Part shown: positions 35,588 through 41,688 of the stretch, one piece after another
Numbering within the stretch: position 1 is the first letter of the stretch
Layout: every line of letters starts with the position of its first letter
Assembly (NCBI GenBank): GCA_020845575.1
Contig: JADLFL010000035.1
Span: forward strand, 1 to 64,000
Length of the DNA: 64,000 nt
From: Acidobacteriota bacterium
GTDB taxonomy: Bacteria > Acidobacteriota > Vicinamibacteria > Vicinamibacterales > Vicinamibacteraceae
Direction of reading: 5' to 3'
The notes under the pieces: generated by a model
What the model was told of the DNA's origin: nothing
Databases searched by the model: none
Seen by the model: the letters and a program-made list of their open reading frames with translations, nothing else
Position numbers and translations under genes: made by a program

Positions 35588-36157
35588 ATGGCGGGAGACG
35601 TCACGACGCTGCTGGCGCGCTGGAGCGACGGCGATCGCGACGCTCTCGACGAGTTGATGCCGCTGGTCTACGGCGAGTTGCGCCACAACGCAGGCGCATA
35701 TCTGCGCCGGGAACGCGACGACCACACGCTCCAGCCGACGGCACTCGTCCACGAGACGTGGCTGCGACTGGTGCGCCAGGGCAACCCCTCATTCGAACAT
35801 CGGCGCCAGTTCTACGCGCTCGCGGCGCAGGTGATGCGGCGGATCCTGATCGACCATGCGCGCGCCACCCGCGCCGACAAACGCGGGGGCGACCACATGC
35901 GCGTGGCGTGTGCGTCCGACGTCGGCACGGATGCACCGGCGTTCGAGGACCTGCTGTCGCTCGACGCCGCCCTCGCACGGCTGGCGACAGCCAACGCACG
36001 GCAGGCGCAGGTCATCGAGCTGCGCTACTTCGGCGGCCTGAACGTGGAGGAAGCCGCCGACGTGCTCGGCGTCTCACCGGCCACTGTGAGCCGGGATCAG
36101 AAGGTGGCCGAAGCGTGGCTCGGCCAGGCGATGGCCGATGACGGCGAACAGGACTGA
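35588..36157 (+). CDS. ECF RNA polymerase sigma factor
   Basis: Sigma factor of 189 residues of the same kinase-linked ECF subgroup as the one at 8742. Region 2 is seen in LMPLVYGELRHNAGAYLRRE and LQPTALVHETWLRL, region 4 in IELRYFGGLNVEEAADVLGV followed by SPATVSRDQKVAEAWL. It overlaps the start of the downstream kinase gene by 20 bases, so the two are translationally linked and probably form one signalling unit. Confidence 0.94.
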   Translation: MAGDVTTLLARWSDGDRDALDELMPLVYGELRHNAGAYLRRERDDHTLQPTALVHETWLRLVRQGNPSFEHRRQFYALAAQVMRRILIDHARATRADKRGGDHMRVACASDVGTDAPAFEDLLSLDAALARLATANARQAQVIELRYFGGLNVEEAADVLGVSPATVSRDQKVAEAWLGQAMADDGEQD

Positions 36158-38642
36158 TACCGGCGCGCCGCTCGATCCGGTGCTGTGGGAACGCGTCGAG
36201 CGCGCGTTCCTCGCTCTCGAACACGTCCCGGCAGACGAGCGGGACGCCGCGATCGCAAGCCATGCGGCCGGCGATGCCAGCCTCGCGCGCATCCTGCGGC
36301 GCATGCTGGGCGCGGCCGAACACGCACCCGCGCGCATCGGAGACGCCATCGCGCGTGCCGCCGACGCCGTCGCGGCCATCGCACCCGGTTCGTGGATCGG
36401 ACGCCGTGTCGGCTCATACGTCGTCCTGCGCGAGATCGGACGCGGGGGCATGGGTCTCGTGTTCGAGGCCGCACGCGCCGACGCGGCGTTCGACAAGCGC
36501 GTGGCGCTCAAGGTCGCTCCCGACTGGCGCGGGGGCGACGACTCGGCCGCCCGCTTCCGCGCGGAGCGCCAGATCCTCGCCGGTCTCGAACACCCCAACA
36601 TCGCGCGGCTGCTCGACGGCGGCACGGAAGACGGCGTGCCGTACTTCGCGATGGAGCTCGTTGACGGCGAGCCCATCACTGCGTATTGCAACAGGCACGG
36701 CCTCGACCTCGACGCGCGCCTGCGCCTCTTCATCGACGTGTGTCTCGCGGTCGAATACGCGCACGACCATCTCGTGGTGCATCGCGACATCAAGCCGGCC
36801 AACATCCTCGTCACGGCAGGCGGCGTGCCCAAGCTCCTCGACTTCGGCATCGCCAAGGTGCTCGGCGGACGCGCCGCAGACGCCACGCTCACGGCGGTCA
36901 CCGCGTGGACGCCGGCGTACGTGAGTCCCGAACAAGTGCGCGGATGGCCGATCACGGTCCGCACCGACGTCTATTCGCTTGGCCTCGTGCTCTACGAACT
37001 GGTGTGCGAGTCGCGTGCCCGGAGTACGGAGACGACAGCCGACGCGAGCCTCGTCGCCGCACTCTCCGAGGCCGCACTCGACGCGCCGAGCGCACGTCTG
37101 CGCGCGGCCGGCCGGCGCGATCTGGCCAGGCGCGTGGCAGGCGACATCGACACCATCACGCTCACGGCCGTGAGTCATGCACCCGACGAGCGCTACCGCT
37201 CCGTGGCGGAGTTGCGCGACGACATCACGCGCGTGCTCACGAACCGCCCGATTCGCGCACGCATGGCGAGTCCGCTGCACCGTGCGCGCAAGTTCGTGGC
37301 ACGCCACGCCGTTGCCGTGACGGCCGTCGCCATCGCCGCGACGCTCGCCGTCGCCGGACTCGTATCGGCGCTGAACGAAGGGCGCAAGGCCGATCGTCGC
37401 TTCCAGCAGGTGCGGGCGCTCGCCAACACGTTCGTCACCGACGTCCACGACCGTATCGCCATGCTGCCGGGATCCACGGAAGCACGCCACGCGATCGTGC
37501 AGACGGCCCTCACGTACCTCGAGAGCCTGCGCGCCGACGTCGGGACCGACGCGGCCCTGGCCGTCGAGCTCGCGAGCGCGTACGAAAAGGTCGGCTCCGC
37601 GCAGGGGCTGCCGACAGGGCCGAACCTCGGGAACACGGAAGGCGCGCTGGCAAGTTACGACACGGGCATCGCGCTGCTGCAGCCGTTCGCGTCACAGGAA
37701 AACGCGGCGAGACAGACGGTGTCGCTGCTGAATCTCCGCGGCGTCGTGAGACGCGCACGTGGGGATGTCGATGGCGCGATCGCCGATCTCGACGAGGGCG
37801 TCGCCATCGGGCGCCGGCTGCTGGCAGCCCGTCCGGACGACATCGCCACGATGGATGTCCTGGGCAGCATCGTGGCCAACAGAGGCCGCGCCGCATTCGA
37901 ACGGCGTGATTTCGGCGCCGCCGAACGAGACGGGACCGATGCGATGGCGCTCGCGGAGCGCCTCGTCGCGGCCGCGCCGCAGAACTCCCTCCACAGGAAC
38001 TCGCTCGCGGCGGCACACCTGGCCGTCGGTACCGCGCAGCTCGGGGCGGGGAGGCTCACCGACGCCGCGACGCACTACAGGGAATCCACGACGATCCGTG
38101 AGGCGTTGGTGCACGAGCACCCCGACAACGCCGCATACCGTCGCGCGCTCGCCATCGGCTACGGCACGCTCGGTGACGTGCTCGGATACAGGCCCGACAA
38201 TCTCGGGGATACCGATGGCGCCGTCACCGCGTTCACGAAAGCCGCCGCACTCATCGAGCAGGCGCGCGCCGAGGATCCGAAGGATCGGCGTGCGCTGTAC
38301 GACCTCGCGAACGTCCACGTGCGGCTCGGACGCGTGTACGCGAACGCGCAGCCGGCACGGATGGACGACGCCTTGTCGGCCCTCGAGCGGGCCACCTCGA
38401 ACGTCGACAGCCTCCTCGCCGAGGATCCGGAGGTCCTCACGTACCGCTACCTGCGATTCGTGGTGCTGAGAGACAAGGGCTACGCGCTGGCCCGGATCGG
38501 ACGGCGAACGGCCGCCATCACGGCACTGGAGGACGCCGCCAAGGTCGGTGCCGCGCTGCGTGGAGGCCCGAACGACGCGACCGTCGCCGATGCGATGACG
38601 GTCATCGCGACTCGCCTCGACGAACTTCGCCTCGCACGGTGA
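36138..38642 (+). CDS. Ser/Thr protein kinase with TPR region
   Basis: Membrane kinase of 834 residues. Glycine loop GRGGMGLVFEA near 101, catalytic loop HRDIKPAN near 215, DFGIAKVL and YVSPEQ are intact. A transmembrane helix near 390-410 (AVTAVAIAATLAVAGLVSAL) separates the kinase from a TPR-rich C-terminal half (for example LASAYEKVGSAQGLPTGPNL). It lacks the TolB-like domain of the kinase at 5703. The start inside the sigma-factor gene is supported by the 20-base overlap and domain completeness. The RiPP-like locus lies directly downstream on the opposite strand. Confidence 0.94.
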   Translation: MTANRTDTGAPLDPVLWERVERAFLALEHVPADERDAAIASHAAGDASLARILRRMLGAAEHAPARIGDAIARAADAVAAIAPGSWIGRRVGSYVVLREIGRGGMGLVFEAARADAAFDKRVALKVAPDWRGGDDSAARFRAERQILAGLEHPNIARLLDGGTEDGVPYFAMELVDGEPITAYCNRHGLDLDARLRLFIDVCLAVEYAHDHLVVHRDIKPANILVTAGGVPKLLDFGIAKVLGGRAADATLTAVTAWTPAYVSPEQVRGWPITVRTDVYSLGLVLYELVCESRARSTETTADASLVAALSEAALDAPSARLRAAGRRDLARRVAGDIDTITLTAVSHAPDERYRSVAELRDDITRVLTNRPIRARMASPLHRARKFVARHAVAVTAVAIAATLAVAGLVSALNEGRKADRRFQQVRALANTFVTDVHDRIAMLPGSTEARHAIVQTALTYLESLRADVGTDAALAVELASAYEKVGSAQGLPTGPNLGNTEGALASYDTGIALLQPFASQENAARQTVSLLNLRGVVRRARGDVDGAIADLDEGVAIGRRLLAARPDDIATMDVLGSIVANRGRAAFERRDFGAAERDGTDAMALAERLVAAAPQNSLHRNSLAAAHLAVGTAQLGAGRLTDAATHYRESTTIREALVHEHPDNAAYRRALAIGYGTLGDVLGYRPDNLGDTDGAVTAFTKAAALIEQARAEDPKDRRALYDLANVHVRLGRVYANAQPARMDDALSALERATSNVDSLLAEDPEVLTYRYLRFVVLRDKGYALARIGRRTAAITALEDAAKVGAALRGGPNDATVADAMTVIATRLDELRLAR

Positions 38643-38698: not shown

Positions 38699-38839
38699 CT
38701 AGAACTCGGACGCGGCAGAGGGCCTCTGCTGCGTCATCCGCGCCAGGTCGCCGTGATCGACGACACGAGGCGTCTGGTACGGCTTGCGTGGCGTCTTCTC
38801 CGTCCCGGGAACGGTCGTTTTGAGCGTGCATGAAGTCAA
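38699..38839 (-). CDS. RiPP precursor peptide with lasso-type leader
   Basis: Peptide of 46 residues starting at TTG. The central part YQTPRVVDHGDLARMT fits the lasso leader pattern Y-x2-P-x-[LV]-x3-G-x5-T that is read by PqqD-like B1 proteins. The Thr at the usual penultimate leader position leaves QRPSAASEF as a 9-residue core, with Glu at position 8 and only Phe after it. Start choice: AGGAGA lies seven bases upstream (38852-38847), and the TTG overlaps the stop of the HPr-kinase-like gene as TTGA. An in-frame ATG at 38887 would give 62 residues but has no such signal. The core has two Ser residues that the kinase could modify. A lasso ring of eight residues would leave a one-residue tail, so a threaded lasso is unlikely. 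Confidence 0.75.
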   Translation of the reverse strand: MTSCTLKTTVPGTEKTPRKPYQTPRVVDHGDLARMTQQRPSAASEF

Positions 38840-39756
38840 CGACGAATCTCCTGTTGAGGTAATGCCGACGCAAGTGTAGCACGCCATGGCGCGGCGACTA
38901 TCCCCTCCAGCGCGTCGACGACGGCGGGGATGACGGTCAACTCACGCGGTCGTCGAAGCGACCACACGGGCACACGCGCCGCGAGGTGCGCACACTGCCG
39001 CAGGTGCCGGGCACGCTGGATGTCGACGAGCAGCGGCCGGCAGAACGAGTACCGCACCAGCTCGATTGCGGCAGCACCGGGGTCGAGACGCTCGCACGCG
39101 AAGTCCCCATCGTCGAGCGTCACCAGCGCCGCTATCGGAGCCGGGTCCGACGCGAGAGCCGGCAAGGCATAGGTACGCTTGTCTGCGGCCATCCACGACG
39201 CCCGGACCTCGACGCCCGCCGGCGGCTCGTGCAGACGCACGAATGGCGCGTGGGGATGCACGCGCGGGTGGTCTCCGTCCCCGGCGTCCACGACGGCGAT
39301 GTCATCGGCGAGCAGGGCGTGCCCGCGGCCGGCACACGCCGTCGCCATGGTGGACTTGCCAACGCCGGAGTGGGCGAGCACGACGACGGCTGCCGAACCG
39401 ATCCGGATGACAGCCCCATGCAGGACCAGACGCCCGCGCTGCATCGCCGCAACAGCCAGCAGGGGGCCTGTCAGCCACTGCGCCAATGTCCCTGGCTCGA
39501 CGTCGGCCTGAGGCCAGGCGAGCACGTATGCACCGTCCTCGACGATGAAACGCCCGGCGCCGGCAGCCACGACCCTGACGCGCCGGCCATCGGAACTGGC
39601 CTCGTGGGTGTCGCCATCAGGCGGCGGCATACCTCGGCGGTCGACGATGGTGAGATCGGCGGCGGCAGCGGGATCGGCGGCGGGGACGCCGGGCAACTCG
39701 AATGGCGATCGCACGACCATTCCGCCGAGCCGGTATCGGCGTTCGATCATCGTCAT
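38836..39756 (-). CDS. HPr kinase/phosphatase-like protein of a RiPP locus
   Basis: Protein of 306 residues with a P-loop HSGVGKST (129-136) and a nearby DD pair (151-152), as in the C-terminal domain of HPr kinase. A less conserved N-terminal domain of about 100 residues precedes it. Relatives in paeninodin-type lasso clusters phosphorylate the C-terminal Ser of the precursor. Here the gene ends inside the start of the precursor gene (four-base TTGA overlap), which ties the kinase to that peptide. Two ATG codons (39756 and 39750) are possible starts; another at 39789 is less likely. No PTS genes are in the window, so a role in carbon control is unlikely. Confidence 0.85.
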   Translation of the reverse strand: MTMIERRYRLGGMVVRSPFELPGVPAADPAAAADLTIVDRRGMPPPDGDTHEASSDGRRVRVVAAGAGRFIVEDGAYVLAWPQADVEPGTLAQWLTGPLLAVAAMQRGRLVLHGAVIRIGSAAVVVLAHSGVGKSTMATACAGRGHALLADDIAVVDAGDGDHPRVHPHAPFVRLHEPPAGVEVRASWMAADKRTYALPALASDPAPIAALVTLDDGDFACERLDPGAAAIELVRYSFCRPLLVDIQRARHLRQCAHLAARVPVWSLRRPRELTVIPAVVDALEGIVAAPWRATLASALPQQEIRR

Positions 39757-39822
39757 GACGTCGCAGTGTGGGCCACGCCGCGCGTGCATGGCAAACGGAA
39801 GCGCGTCGATGGCTCTCGTGGC

Positions 39823-40131
39823 ATGATGGACCTCGTGCTCACCCCCGGCTCGCGATTGGTGGCTCGCGCCGACGTGCTCGGTAGTAGTGTCGGCGACGAG
39901 GCCAGCATTCTGCTGGATCCCGTGGCGGGCCGGTACTTCACCATCGAGGGGGCGGGCACGAGCGCGTGGGCGGCACTCGCCGTCCCCGTGACGTTCGATG
40001 CGCTGTGCGCGCGCGTCACGGCGGAGTTCGACGTGGACGATGCCACCTGCGAACGCGACATGCGCGATCTCGTGACGCGCCTGATCGACCTCGGACTCGT
40101 CCGCGTCCTGGACGAGCACGACGCGGACTGA
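39823..40131 (+). CDS. PqqD-like RiPP recognition protein (lasso B1-like)
   Basis: Protein of 102 residues with a PqqD-type winged-helix fold, the RiPP recognition element that binds leader peptides. It has the family pattern of an early strand with a GDEASILLDPVAGRYFTIEG hairpin and a C-terminal helix pair (FDVDDATCERDMRDLVTRLI). It sits three bases before the B2 gene and is divergent from the HPr-kinase-like gene across a 66-bp spacer. It should deliver the precursor to the B2 protease. A second ATG lies one codon downstream. Confidence 0.88.
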   Translation: MMDLVLTPGSRLVARADVLGSSVGDEASILLDPVAGRYFTIEGAGTSAWAALAVPVTFDALCARVTAEFDVDDATCERDMRDLVTRLIDLGLVRVLDEHDAD

Positions 40132-40133
40132 CC

Positions 40134-40526
40134 ATGCTGTCGCGTCTCTGGCGCCTCGCGATCGCCGCGACCGTCGTCGCCGTGGTTCGCGTGTGCCTGT
40201 GGACGCTGCCCTTCGCGCGCGTCGAGCGCCTCGTCACGCGTGGGCGCACATGGCGGTTCGGCGCCGTACGGGAGATGCCCACGCACGTCGCCGGGCGCGT
40301 CCACCGCATCGCGCGCTTCATTCCTTCGGCCTCCTGTCTCACACGCGCGCTTGCCACGCAGATCCTGTTGGCGTGGCAGGGACAGGCGTCCACGGTTCGC
40401 TACGGCGCCCGTCACGACGCCGCGGGGTTCGCCGCGCATGCGTGGGTCGAGATCGACGGACGGTCGCTCGATGCGTTGTCGAGCGACTACCGGCCGTTGC
40501 ACCCGGCGGGAGTGCCGCGTGGCTGA
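40134..40526 (+). CDS. lasso-type B2 protease (transglutaminase-like)
   Basis: Protein of 130 residues of the family that removes the leader in lasso peptide biosynthesis. A hydrophobic N-terminal segment is followed by the papain-like core. The probable catalytic residues are Cys68 (SASCLTRAL), His102 (FAAHAWVEIDG) and Asp108. The spacing matches the known B2 pattern C-x2-R-A-L and H-A-W-V-E. B1 and B2 are separate genes here, as in Gram-positive-type lasso clusters. It overlaps the nucleotidyltransferase start by eight bases. Confidence 0.9.
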   Translation: MLSRLWRLAIAATVVAVVRVCLWTLPFARVERLVTRGRTWRFGAVREMPTHVAGRVHRIARFIPSASCLTRALATQILLAWQGQASTVRYGARHDAAGFAAHAWVEIDGRSLDALSSDYRPLHPAGVPRG

Positions 40527-41688
40527 TCGCATGGCCAGGCGGCTGGTCGCGCTCGCAACAGGCGACGTGGCGAGCCGGCCACCTGTCCGCCGTAGCCCCG
40601 ACGACGAGCGGGGCGCGACGTCGGGCGAAGGTGGAGGCCCGGCCCCCGCAGACGATCACGTCGTGCGGACGCTGTACACGCAAGGGTTGTTGTCGTGGGG
40701 ACACGACGTGGCAGTCGCCGACGGGTGGCCAGCAGATGTACGCGAACGGATCGCGCGCCTGCGGGCCGACGCCGTGAGCAGGGCACTGGCACAAGCGGCG
40801 TTGCTGACGACCCTGCGGCAGGAGGCCGAGCACGCCGGCATCCCGCTGATGGTGCTCAAGGGCATCGCCCTCTCGACGGCCCTGTACGGCGACCTTGCGC
40901 GCCGCCACTCCGTCGATCTCGACGTGCTCGTCTCACCCGTCCACGCGGGCACCATCGCCGGAGTGCTGCGCGGTCTCGGTTTCGTACCGGGCCACCCATG
41001 GCAGGACGGCGGGTCGGACGAGTTCACGCGATGGGCCCGGCTGCACCATGAGTTCGCGTTCACCGACGCACGCGGCCGGGTCGTCGAACTGCACGCGCGA
41101 CTCACTGGTCCCTTGATGGGACGCAGCCGCCCCTTCGAGGCGTTGTGGCACGACCGTCGAGAGGTGCGGCTCGGCAGTTGCCACGTGGCCATGCCGTCGT
41201 GGGAAGACAGCGTTCCGCACCTTGCGGTCCACGGCTTCTGCCATGGATGGGAACGGCTGTCGTGGATCGCCGACATCGCCGCCATCGCGACGCGCGCCGA
41301 CGTCGACTGGGATCGCACGCGTACGCTGGCCGGCGAGTTGCGGTGCGTCACGGCCGTGGAAGCGGCACTCGGGATCAGTCACGCCCTGTTCGACACGCCG
41401 TTGCCGTGGCGTCCCGGCGCGCGTGCCGATCGCGCGGCGCGTGCCGTCGTGACGCGGATCGAACGCGGACGATTCAAGCCGCCCTTCGCCGACTGGCTCG
41501 GCGATCACTTCCGCAGCAGGGATGGCTGGATCGATGTCGCCCGGCACGCGTGGGCGTTGTGGCGTGTGCCGGCCGCGGATGATGCCAGCCCCGGCGAGTG
41601 GCCGCCGTCGGCGCTGTCGCTGACGTGGCGGCGCCCGCTCCGCCTGGTCCGTCGCCACGTGATCCGCGGCACGCGCGACGCCGCCTGA
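40519..41688 (+). CDS. nucleotidyltransferase of RiPP/lasso-type clusters
   Basis: Protein of 389 residues of the NTP_transf_5 family. The diagnostic motif is LKGIALSTALYGDLARRH followed by SVDLDVLV, with Asp133 and Asp135 as probable metal ligands. The rest is mostly helical. Such proteins are frequent in lasso clusters that also carry an HPr-kinase-like gene, and may nucleotidylate the phosphopeptide; this is not proven. The GTG at 40519 overlaps the B2 gene. Residues about 19-44 are low-complexity (RPPVRRSPDDERG, TSGEGGGPAPADDH) and coincide with a REP-like palindrome, so GTG 40663 (341 residues) is a credible alternative start. Confidence 0.85.
   Translation: MADRMARRLVALATGDVASRPPVRRSPDDERGATSGEGGGPAPADDHVVRTLYTQGLLSWGHDVAVADGWPADVRERIARLRADAVSRALAQAALLTTLRQEAEHAGIPLMVLKGIALSTALYGDLARRHSVDLDVLVSPVHAGTIAGVLRGLGFVPGHPWQDGGSDEFTRWARLHHEFAFTDARGRVVELHARLTGPLMGRSRPFEALWHDRREVRLGSCHVAMPSWEDSVPHLAVHGFCHGWERLSWIADIAAIATRADVDWDRTRTLAGELRCVTAVEAALGISHALFDTPLPWRPGARADRAARAVVTRIERGRFKPPFADWLGDHFRSRDGWIDVARHAWALWRVPAADDASPGEWPPSALSLTWRRPLRLVRRHVIRGTRDAA
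40576..40645. repeat. REP-like palindromic element, copy 1
   Basis: The segments GTCCGCCGTAGCCCC and GGGCGAAGGTGGAGGCCC flank a 20-base insert. Nearly the same segments occur at 58863-58917. The element lies inside the 5' part of the nucleotidyltransferase open frame. Confidence 0.6.

Follow-up and report, generated by a model that had tools for sequence, protein, structure and literature searches.

The closest described systems are lasso peptide clusters that carry both a kinase and a nucleotidyltransferase, i.e., bsf of Bradymonas sediminis (PMC10368454) and the paeninodin and pseudomycoidin clusters (PMC8498205). With the locus analyzed here, they share the leader motif YxxP...G.....T, split B1 and B2 proteins, an HprK-like kinase (K), a nucleotidyltransferase (N), and the adjacency of B2 and the nucleotidyltransferase gene (NT). 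BsfK phosphorylates Ser3 of the core with strong help from B1 (PMC10368454), and for the pseudomycoidin nucleotidyltransferase, an addition of hexoses to the phosphate was reported (PMC8498205). Unlike these clusters, the branch described here has no macrolactam synthetase C, no D was noted, and five of its six cores lack a ring acid. It further differs from them by offering no C-terminal Ser to the kinase, by an N-terminal Gln of the core, and by its link to YYY, Agl23, GT2, and FAD-oxidoreductase genes.

Two other described systems share single aspects with the locus. The HPr-rel-A system (TIGR04352/TIGR04353) also combines a distant HprK-like kinase with a PqqD-like protein, but our K and B1 score only 39.6 and 18.7 with its models, which need 200 and 35, respectively, and unlike HPr-rel-A, our locus has B2 and a lasso-type leader. 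Genes for Chlor_Arch_YYY (TIGR03662) and Agl23 (TIGR03663, 'flippase activity-associated') are found as adjacent pairs, as is also the case at a second locus of our genome on contig C40, where, in contrast to six other YYY-bearing genomes of the class, they are accompanied by K, A (precursor), and B1 genes. In the open-access literature that we searched, we found no description of such a combined system; other literature may hold one.

Results

The analyzed stretch of 64,000 nucleotides (the window) belongs to an acidobacterial genome (G000) with an assembly of 4.57 Mb in 78 contigs that is 96% complete, and 193 genomes of its class were used for comparison. The locus is arranged as K-A on the minus strand, diverging from B1-B2-NT on the plus strand, and it is flanked by a Ser/Thr kinase-TPR gene and a SCO1/CusF gene. 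When rechecked on the sequence, the coordinates from the preceding sequence-only reading were correct for both gene groups. K (38836–39756, minus strand) encodes an HPr-kinase-like peptide kinase of 306 residues, and its coupling to the precursor gene, as proposed by that reading, is evident from the TTG start of A, which overlaps the TGA stop of K (TTGA) and is preceded by an AGGAGA. On the plus strand, B1 (39823–40131), B2 (40134–40526), and NT (40519–41688) indeed form a tight operon, in which successive genes overlap or are only a few bases apart; the GTG start of NT overlaps the end of B2. A Ser/Thr protein kinase gene convergent to K(-A) occurs in the window (36138–38642) and in genome G090 (locus L051, 5793–7526), and it is absent from G088; this neighborhood may be due to chance.

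The genes of the locus are all intact. K matches Hpr_kinase_C (E=4e-7) and has the His, P-loop (GxGKST), and DD (ADD) that are typical of paeninodin-type kinases; its active-site residues are mostly intact, with the first P-loop Gly replaced by Ala, a position that is Gly in three of five K proteins. B1, the putative leader-binding protein (RRE), matches PqqD with E=1e-12, and the solved structures nearest to it in sequence are lasso RREs, namely the lasso PqqD-family chaperone 9x90 and TbiB1. The transglutaminase-like B2 (families Transglut_core3/lasso B2), a predicted leader peptidase, reaches 67 bits with NF033537 (lasso_biosyn_B2; cut-off 33) and has an intact catalytic triad of Cys68, His102, and Asp108. 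The locus thus has the pair of B1 (RRE) and B2 leader peptidase that characterizes lasso biosynthesis. NT matches PF14907 (NTP_transf_5) with E=1e-45, and its DxD motif (RRHSVDLDVLV) is intact.

The precursor A (38699–38839, minus strand) comprises 46 residues (MTSCTLKTTVPGTEKTPRKPYQTPRVVDHGDLARMTQQRPSAASEF). Its leader part up to Thr-Gln (38729–38839) contains the motif Y..P.....G.....T that is found in all six homologues, corresponding to the YxxP...G....T pattern of lasso biosynthesis. Although A alone scores 17.4 bits with the lasso-leader model NF033521, just under the cut-off of 19 bits, the motif and the homologues clearly support the earlier view that A is a precursor with a lasso leader. 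A profile made solely from precursors of other genomes matches A with E=2e-10 among the 611 open reading frames of the window, and A is therefore not a chance match. Profiles in which one genome at a time was left out recover every family member, with E-values from 3e-8 to 7e-12. In the alignment of the six homologues, R, P, Y, P, G, and T of the leader and one Pro of the core are invariant. In a wider search, full-length relatives of A were detected only in G000, G088, and G090, and phylum-wide matches cover mainly the leader.

By the Thr(-2) rule of lasso leaders, A is predicted to be cleaved after Thr-Gln, and the predicted core, QRPSAASEF (38702–38728, minus strand), has only nine residues, with Glu8 followed by a single Phe. 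We compared the six cores of the family with 39 cyclase-linked precursors, using Fisher tests that count related genomes as independent. The family cores are Ser/Thr/Pro-rich, with S/T/P content above that of the cyclase-linked precursors (p=1e-4), and Gln is found at core position 1 in five of six, as compared to 2 of 39 (p=1e-4). An Asp or Glu at core positions 7–9 is present in one of six family cores versus 32 of 39 controls (p=0.003). This one is the window core, whose Glu8 is followed by a one-residue tail, whereas the tails of the 32 acid-bearing controls have at least six residues. A ring acid at position 7–9 together with a threadable tail is thus not found in the window core, which is, as read from its residues, too short for a threaded lasso and also much shorter than the cores of its homologues, and the other five cores have no such acid. 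The tails are acidic-aromatic (EF, DEF, EEF, FED), and the C-terminal residues of the six precursors are F, F, F, A, A, and L. Among the cyclase-linked precursors, L191 (6796–7056) has a core QCTPPGCKPK... with two Cys and no ring acid, and further C-linked precursors without ring acid occur at L010, L190, L192, and L195.

In agreement with the claim that no cyclase gene lies to the left or right of the locus, a search with the C profile detected none in the window, and none was detected at 60–79.9 kb of contig C35 either. An AsnB-like macrolactam synthetase, which defines lasso biosynthesis, is also not found elsewhere in this 96% complete assembly, as we saw when following the suggestion to search the rest of the genome. 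The assembly contains eight PF00733 matches: three plain AsnB proteins, one AsnB-like protein near a glycosyltransferase gene, one near a radical-SAM-like gene, one Cys-less copy in a polysaccharide cluster (C51, L021), and two short matches in other open frames. The best of these reaches 288 bits with the lasso-C profile, similar to genus mates that have no B2 (269–286 bits) and below true lasso C proteins (355–957 bits). In the tree, the matches from G000, G088, and G090 group with AsnB, except for L005 (30 bits, on a very long branch), which falls elsewhere. On the basis of profile score, tree, and gene context, we rejected the asparagine-synthetase matches of the genome as a C acting in trans. 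By profile and tree, no lasso-type C was found in the assemblies of G000, G088, and G090, all of which consist of many contigs.

To place the locus among its relatives, most B2 loci of the class that scored above the family cut-off were retrieved and annotated. The nearest B2 proteins are those of G090 (50% identity) and G088 (42%), and in the B2 tree, the window and L051 of G090 pair up with support of 98/94, and L052 of G088 is placed beside them. Both genomes have kept K//B1-B2-NT without C, as the sequence-only reading had asked to be compared, and the C-less state is thus seen in three genomes of two families. The recurrence of the same gene set with homologous precursors in two further genomes indicates that the absence of C is real and not an effect of an assembly edge. 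The G090 contig contains no C over 198–234.6 kb; the G088 contig is only 10 kb long, and that C is absent there is therefore taken from the search of the whole genome. In G088, A follows K, and the K-A order is common to the window, L052, C40, and contig C477 of G088; G090 has two tandem precursors about 4 kb beyond NT.

The layout with C in or beside the gene set occurs in L058 and L059, and in rearranged form in L110, and it is therefore probable that the ancestor of the trio of G000, G088, and G090 lost C. The nearest B2 proteins beyond the trio that are encoded on long contigs mostly have C adjoining. Four genus mates of the window genome have no B2, no A, and no YYY; in the remaining two members of the family, there are true lasso loci that include C. 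A B2 scan of genome contigs gave only five loci, all of them distant. G161 and G069 were left out as members of the C-less branch, as their C is elsewhere or at a contig end. In G161, B1-B2-K-NT is located on C15 (L063) and a lasso-type C on C32 (L221), which means that C in trans can occur in the class.

A search with the G088 and G090 precursors detected further precursors in the window genome on contig C40 (A') and in G088 on C477. The C40 locus is arranged as K'-A'-Chlor_Arch_YYY-Agl23-like//FAD-oxidoreductase-GT2-B1', and K' and B1' are 44% and 41% identical to the window proteins. This locus has neither B2 nor NT, and as B2 of the window is the only PF13471 match in the 4.57-Mb assembly, it is the sole candidate peptidase of its family for A'. 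The start of YYY lies within a few nucleotides of the A' stop, and precursors adjoin YYY in G088 (C477) and G090 as well, whereas no YYY adjoins the window copy or the copy on G088:C638. The YYY and Agl23-like proteins of C40 exceed the curated cut-offs of TIGR03662 and TIGR03663. True YYY proteins are found in nine of the 193 class genomes, including G000, G088, and G090 (p=7e-5, with relatedness ignored), and in comparison to the four genus mates, B2, A, and YYY occur together only in G000. In the six other YYY-bearing class genomes, the YYY/Agl23 genes have no K, B1, or A nearby, and the link is therefore not obligatory. When the YYY and Agl23 profiles were searched against solved structures, no informative match was obtained, the TIM matches being weak and local.

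Discussion

We consider it fairly probable that the locus represents a functional branch of the lasso machinery that does without a cyclase; its chemistry, the sequence of reactions, the connection to a glycan, and the product are what we infer from its genes. As C is missing, the core is too short, the relatives are alike, and sugar genes are linked, the product is probably another kind of small modified peptide. The locus deviates from lasso systems in two of their defining features, the C enzyme and the core architecture, and it possibly represents a separate RiPP type, although this branch is known from three genomes only, all in many contigs. The proposal of a leader-cleaved, modified linear peptide of a distinct RiPP type thus holds in so far as C is missing and the gene set is conserved, but not with respect to a paeninodin-style target of K. 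A C-terminal Ser, which is the kinase target in the paeninodin type (PMC8498205), is present in none of the six precursors, and K is hence unlikely to act there.

In the pathway that we envisage, B1 would bind precursor A through its lasso-like leader, and K would phosphorylate a Ser or Thr in the first part of the core, probably one that closely follows the conserved Pro; the BsfK precedent makes such a residue near this Pro the likeliest target. NT would then add a further group onto that phosphate. Nucleotidylation, as originally suggested, is just one option, since the pseudomycoidin enzyme reportedly adds hexoses (PMC8498205). B2 would cut after Thr-Gln and thereby set free a short peptide that is no lasso and begins with Gln, and the single B2 would serve both A and A'. 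Both B1 binding and B2 cleavage are expected from homology. The mature product may be sugar-modified or coupled to the polyprenyl-sugar pathway of YYY/Agl23. Taken together, and more tentatively, these genes might define a new RiPP type in which lasso-leader precursors and B1, B2, K, and NT, without a cyclase, yield Gln-headed, S/T/P-rich peptides that first receive a phosphate and are afterwards glycosylated via YYY/Agl23 and the polyprenyl-sugar pathway, with one peptidase for two loci; we regard this complete scheme as doubtful. The initial interpretation was largely right and had overlooked the second K-A locus, the YYY/Agl23 sugar link, and the C-bearing relatives L058 and L059.

Other explanations have to be weighed against a working cyclase-less branch. 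The locus could be the remnant of a lasso cluster in which C was deleted from K-C//B1-B2-NT while the rest persists or decays, the nine-residue core being a truncated leftover. The presence of C in or adjoining the same gene set in L058 and L059 (rearranged in L110), the short core in comparison to those of the homologues, and a lone damaged B2 with an in-frame TAG in G048 would fit such decay. However, none of the five genes is damaged, three genomes from two families have the same set without C, and the tandem precursors in G090 and second precursor loci with conserved core features in G000 and G088 are not what a remnant would show, which makes this explanation unlikely. Even less probable is an ordinary lasso peptide with C encoded elsewhere in the genome. 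Split clusters such as that of G161 do occur in the class, and G000 has its eight PF00733 places, with the Cys-less one on C51, but the matches of the trio fall into the AsnB part of the tree, save the remote L005; the C51 gene belongs to a polysaccharide cluster, and similar low-scoring counterparts exist in the B2-less genus mates. In five of the six cores, the ring acid is missing, and in the sixth, a single residue follows it. The earlier suggestion of a C enzyme in trans is weak for this locus. Both explanations are less likely than a working cyclase-less branch.

It is also conceivable that the peptide is not exported and acts on the sugar-lipid system of YYY/Agl23 as a modified regulator or carrier; a phosphorylated form of the peptide could, e.g., control the glycan or carry it. 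The position of A' immediately upstream of YYY, the same neighborhood in G088:C477 and G090, the acidic-aromatic tails, and the fact that no exporter was identified point in this direction. As neither the window copy nor the G088:C638 copy has YYY beside it, and as a leader peptidase implies that a mature peptide is released, we give this role a rather low probability.

If the working cyclase-less branch is confirmed, the module of lasso leader, B1, B2, K, and NT can function apart from lasso formation, and a branch is overlooked when genomes are mined with C as a requirement. The locus also offers a testable starting point for finding out what Chlor_Arch_YYY proteins do and which groups PF14907 nucleotidyltransferases attach to peptides.

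Independently of this branch, the class contains apparently C-less loci that may be of different types (L055/L056, L070, L088, L089, L123, and L127). One such second type is represented by L055 (11729–12016, minus strand; G071) and L056 (3526–3699, plus strand; G072), whose precursors end in VVKASGSGAVTIGAGVG and ...GNVTIGAGVG, respectively, and have a core without Asp or Glu; B1, B2, and NT adjoin, in L055 also K. A lasso C is encoded elsewhere in G071, and none was seen in G072. The contig end at L056 (1–500) contains repeated frame fragments (SPRLISRGSIEA) with near-regular spacing, possibly a CRISPR array. In L070 (5526–5975), a PqqD-like B1 has a C-terminus that resembles a fused precursor (WDAPTVTPHGRPLAQVILSPFDPTVPIPE) within a B1-K-B2-NT locus without C, and L088 and L089 are similar to L070 in content.
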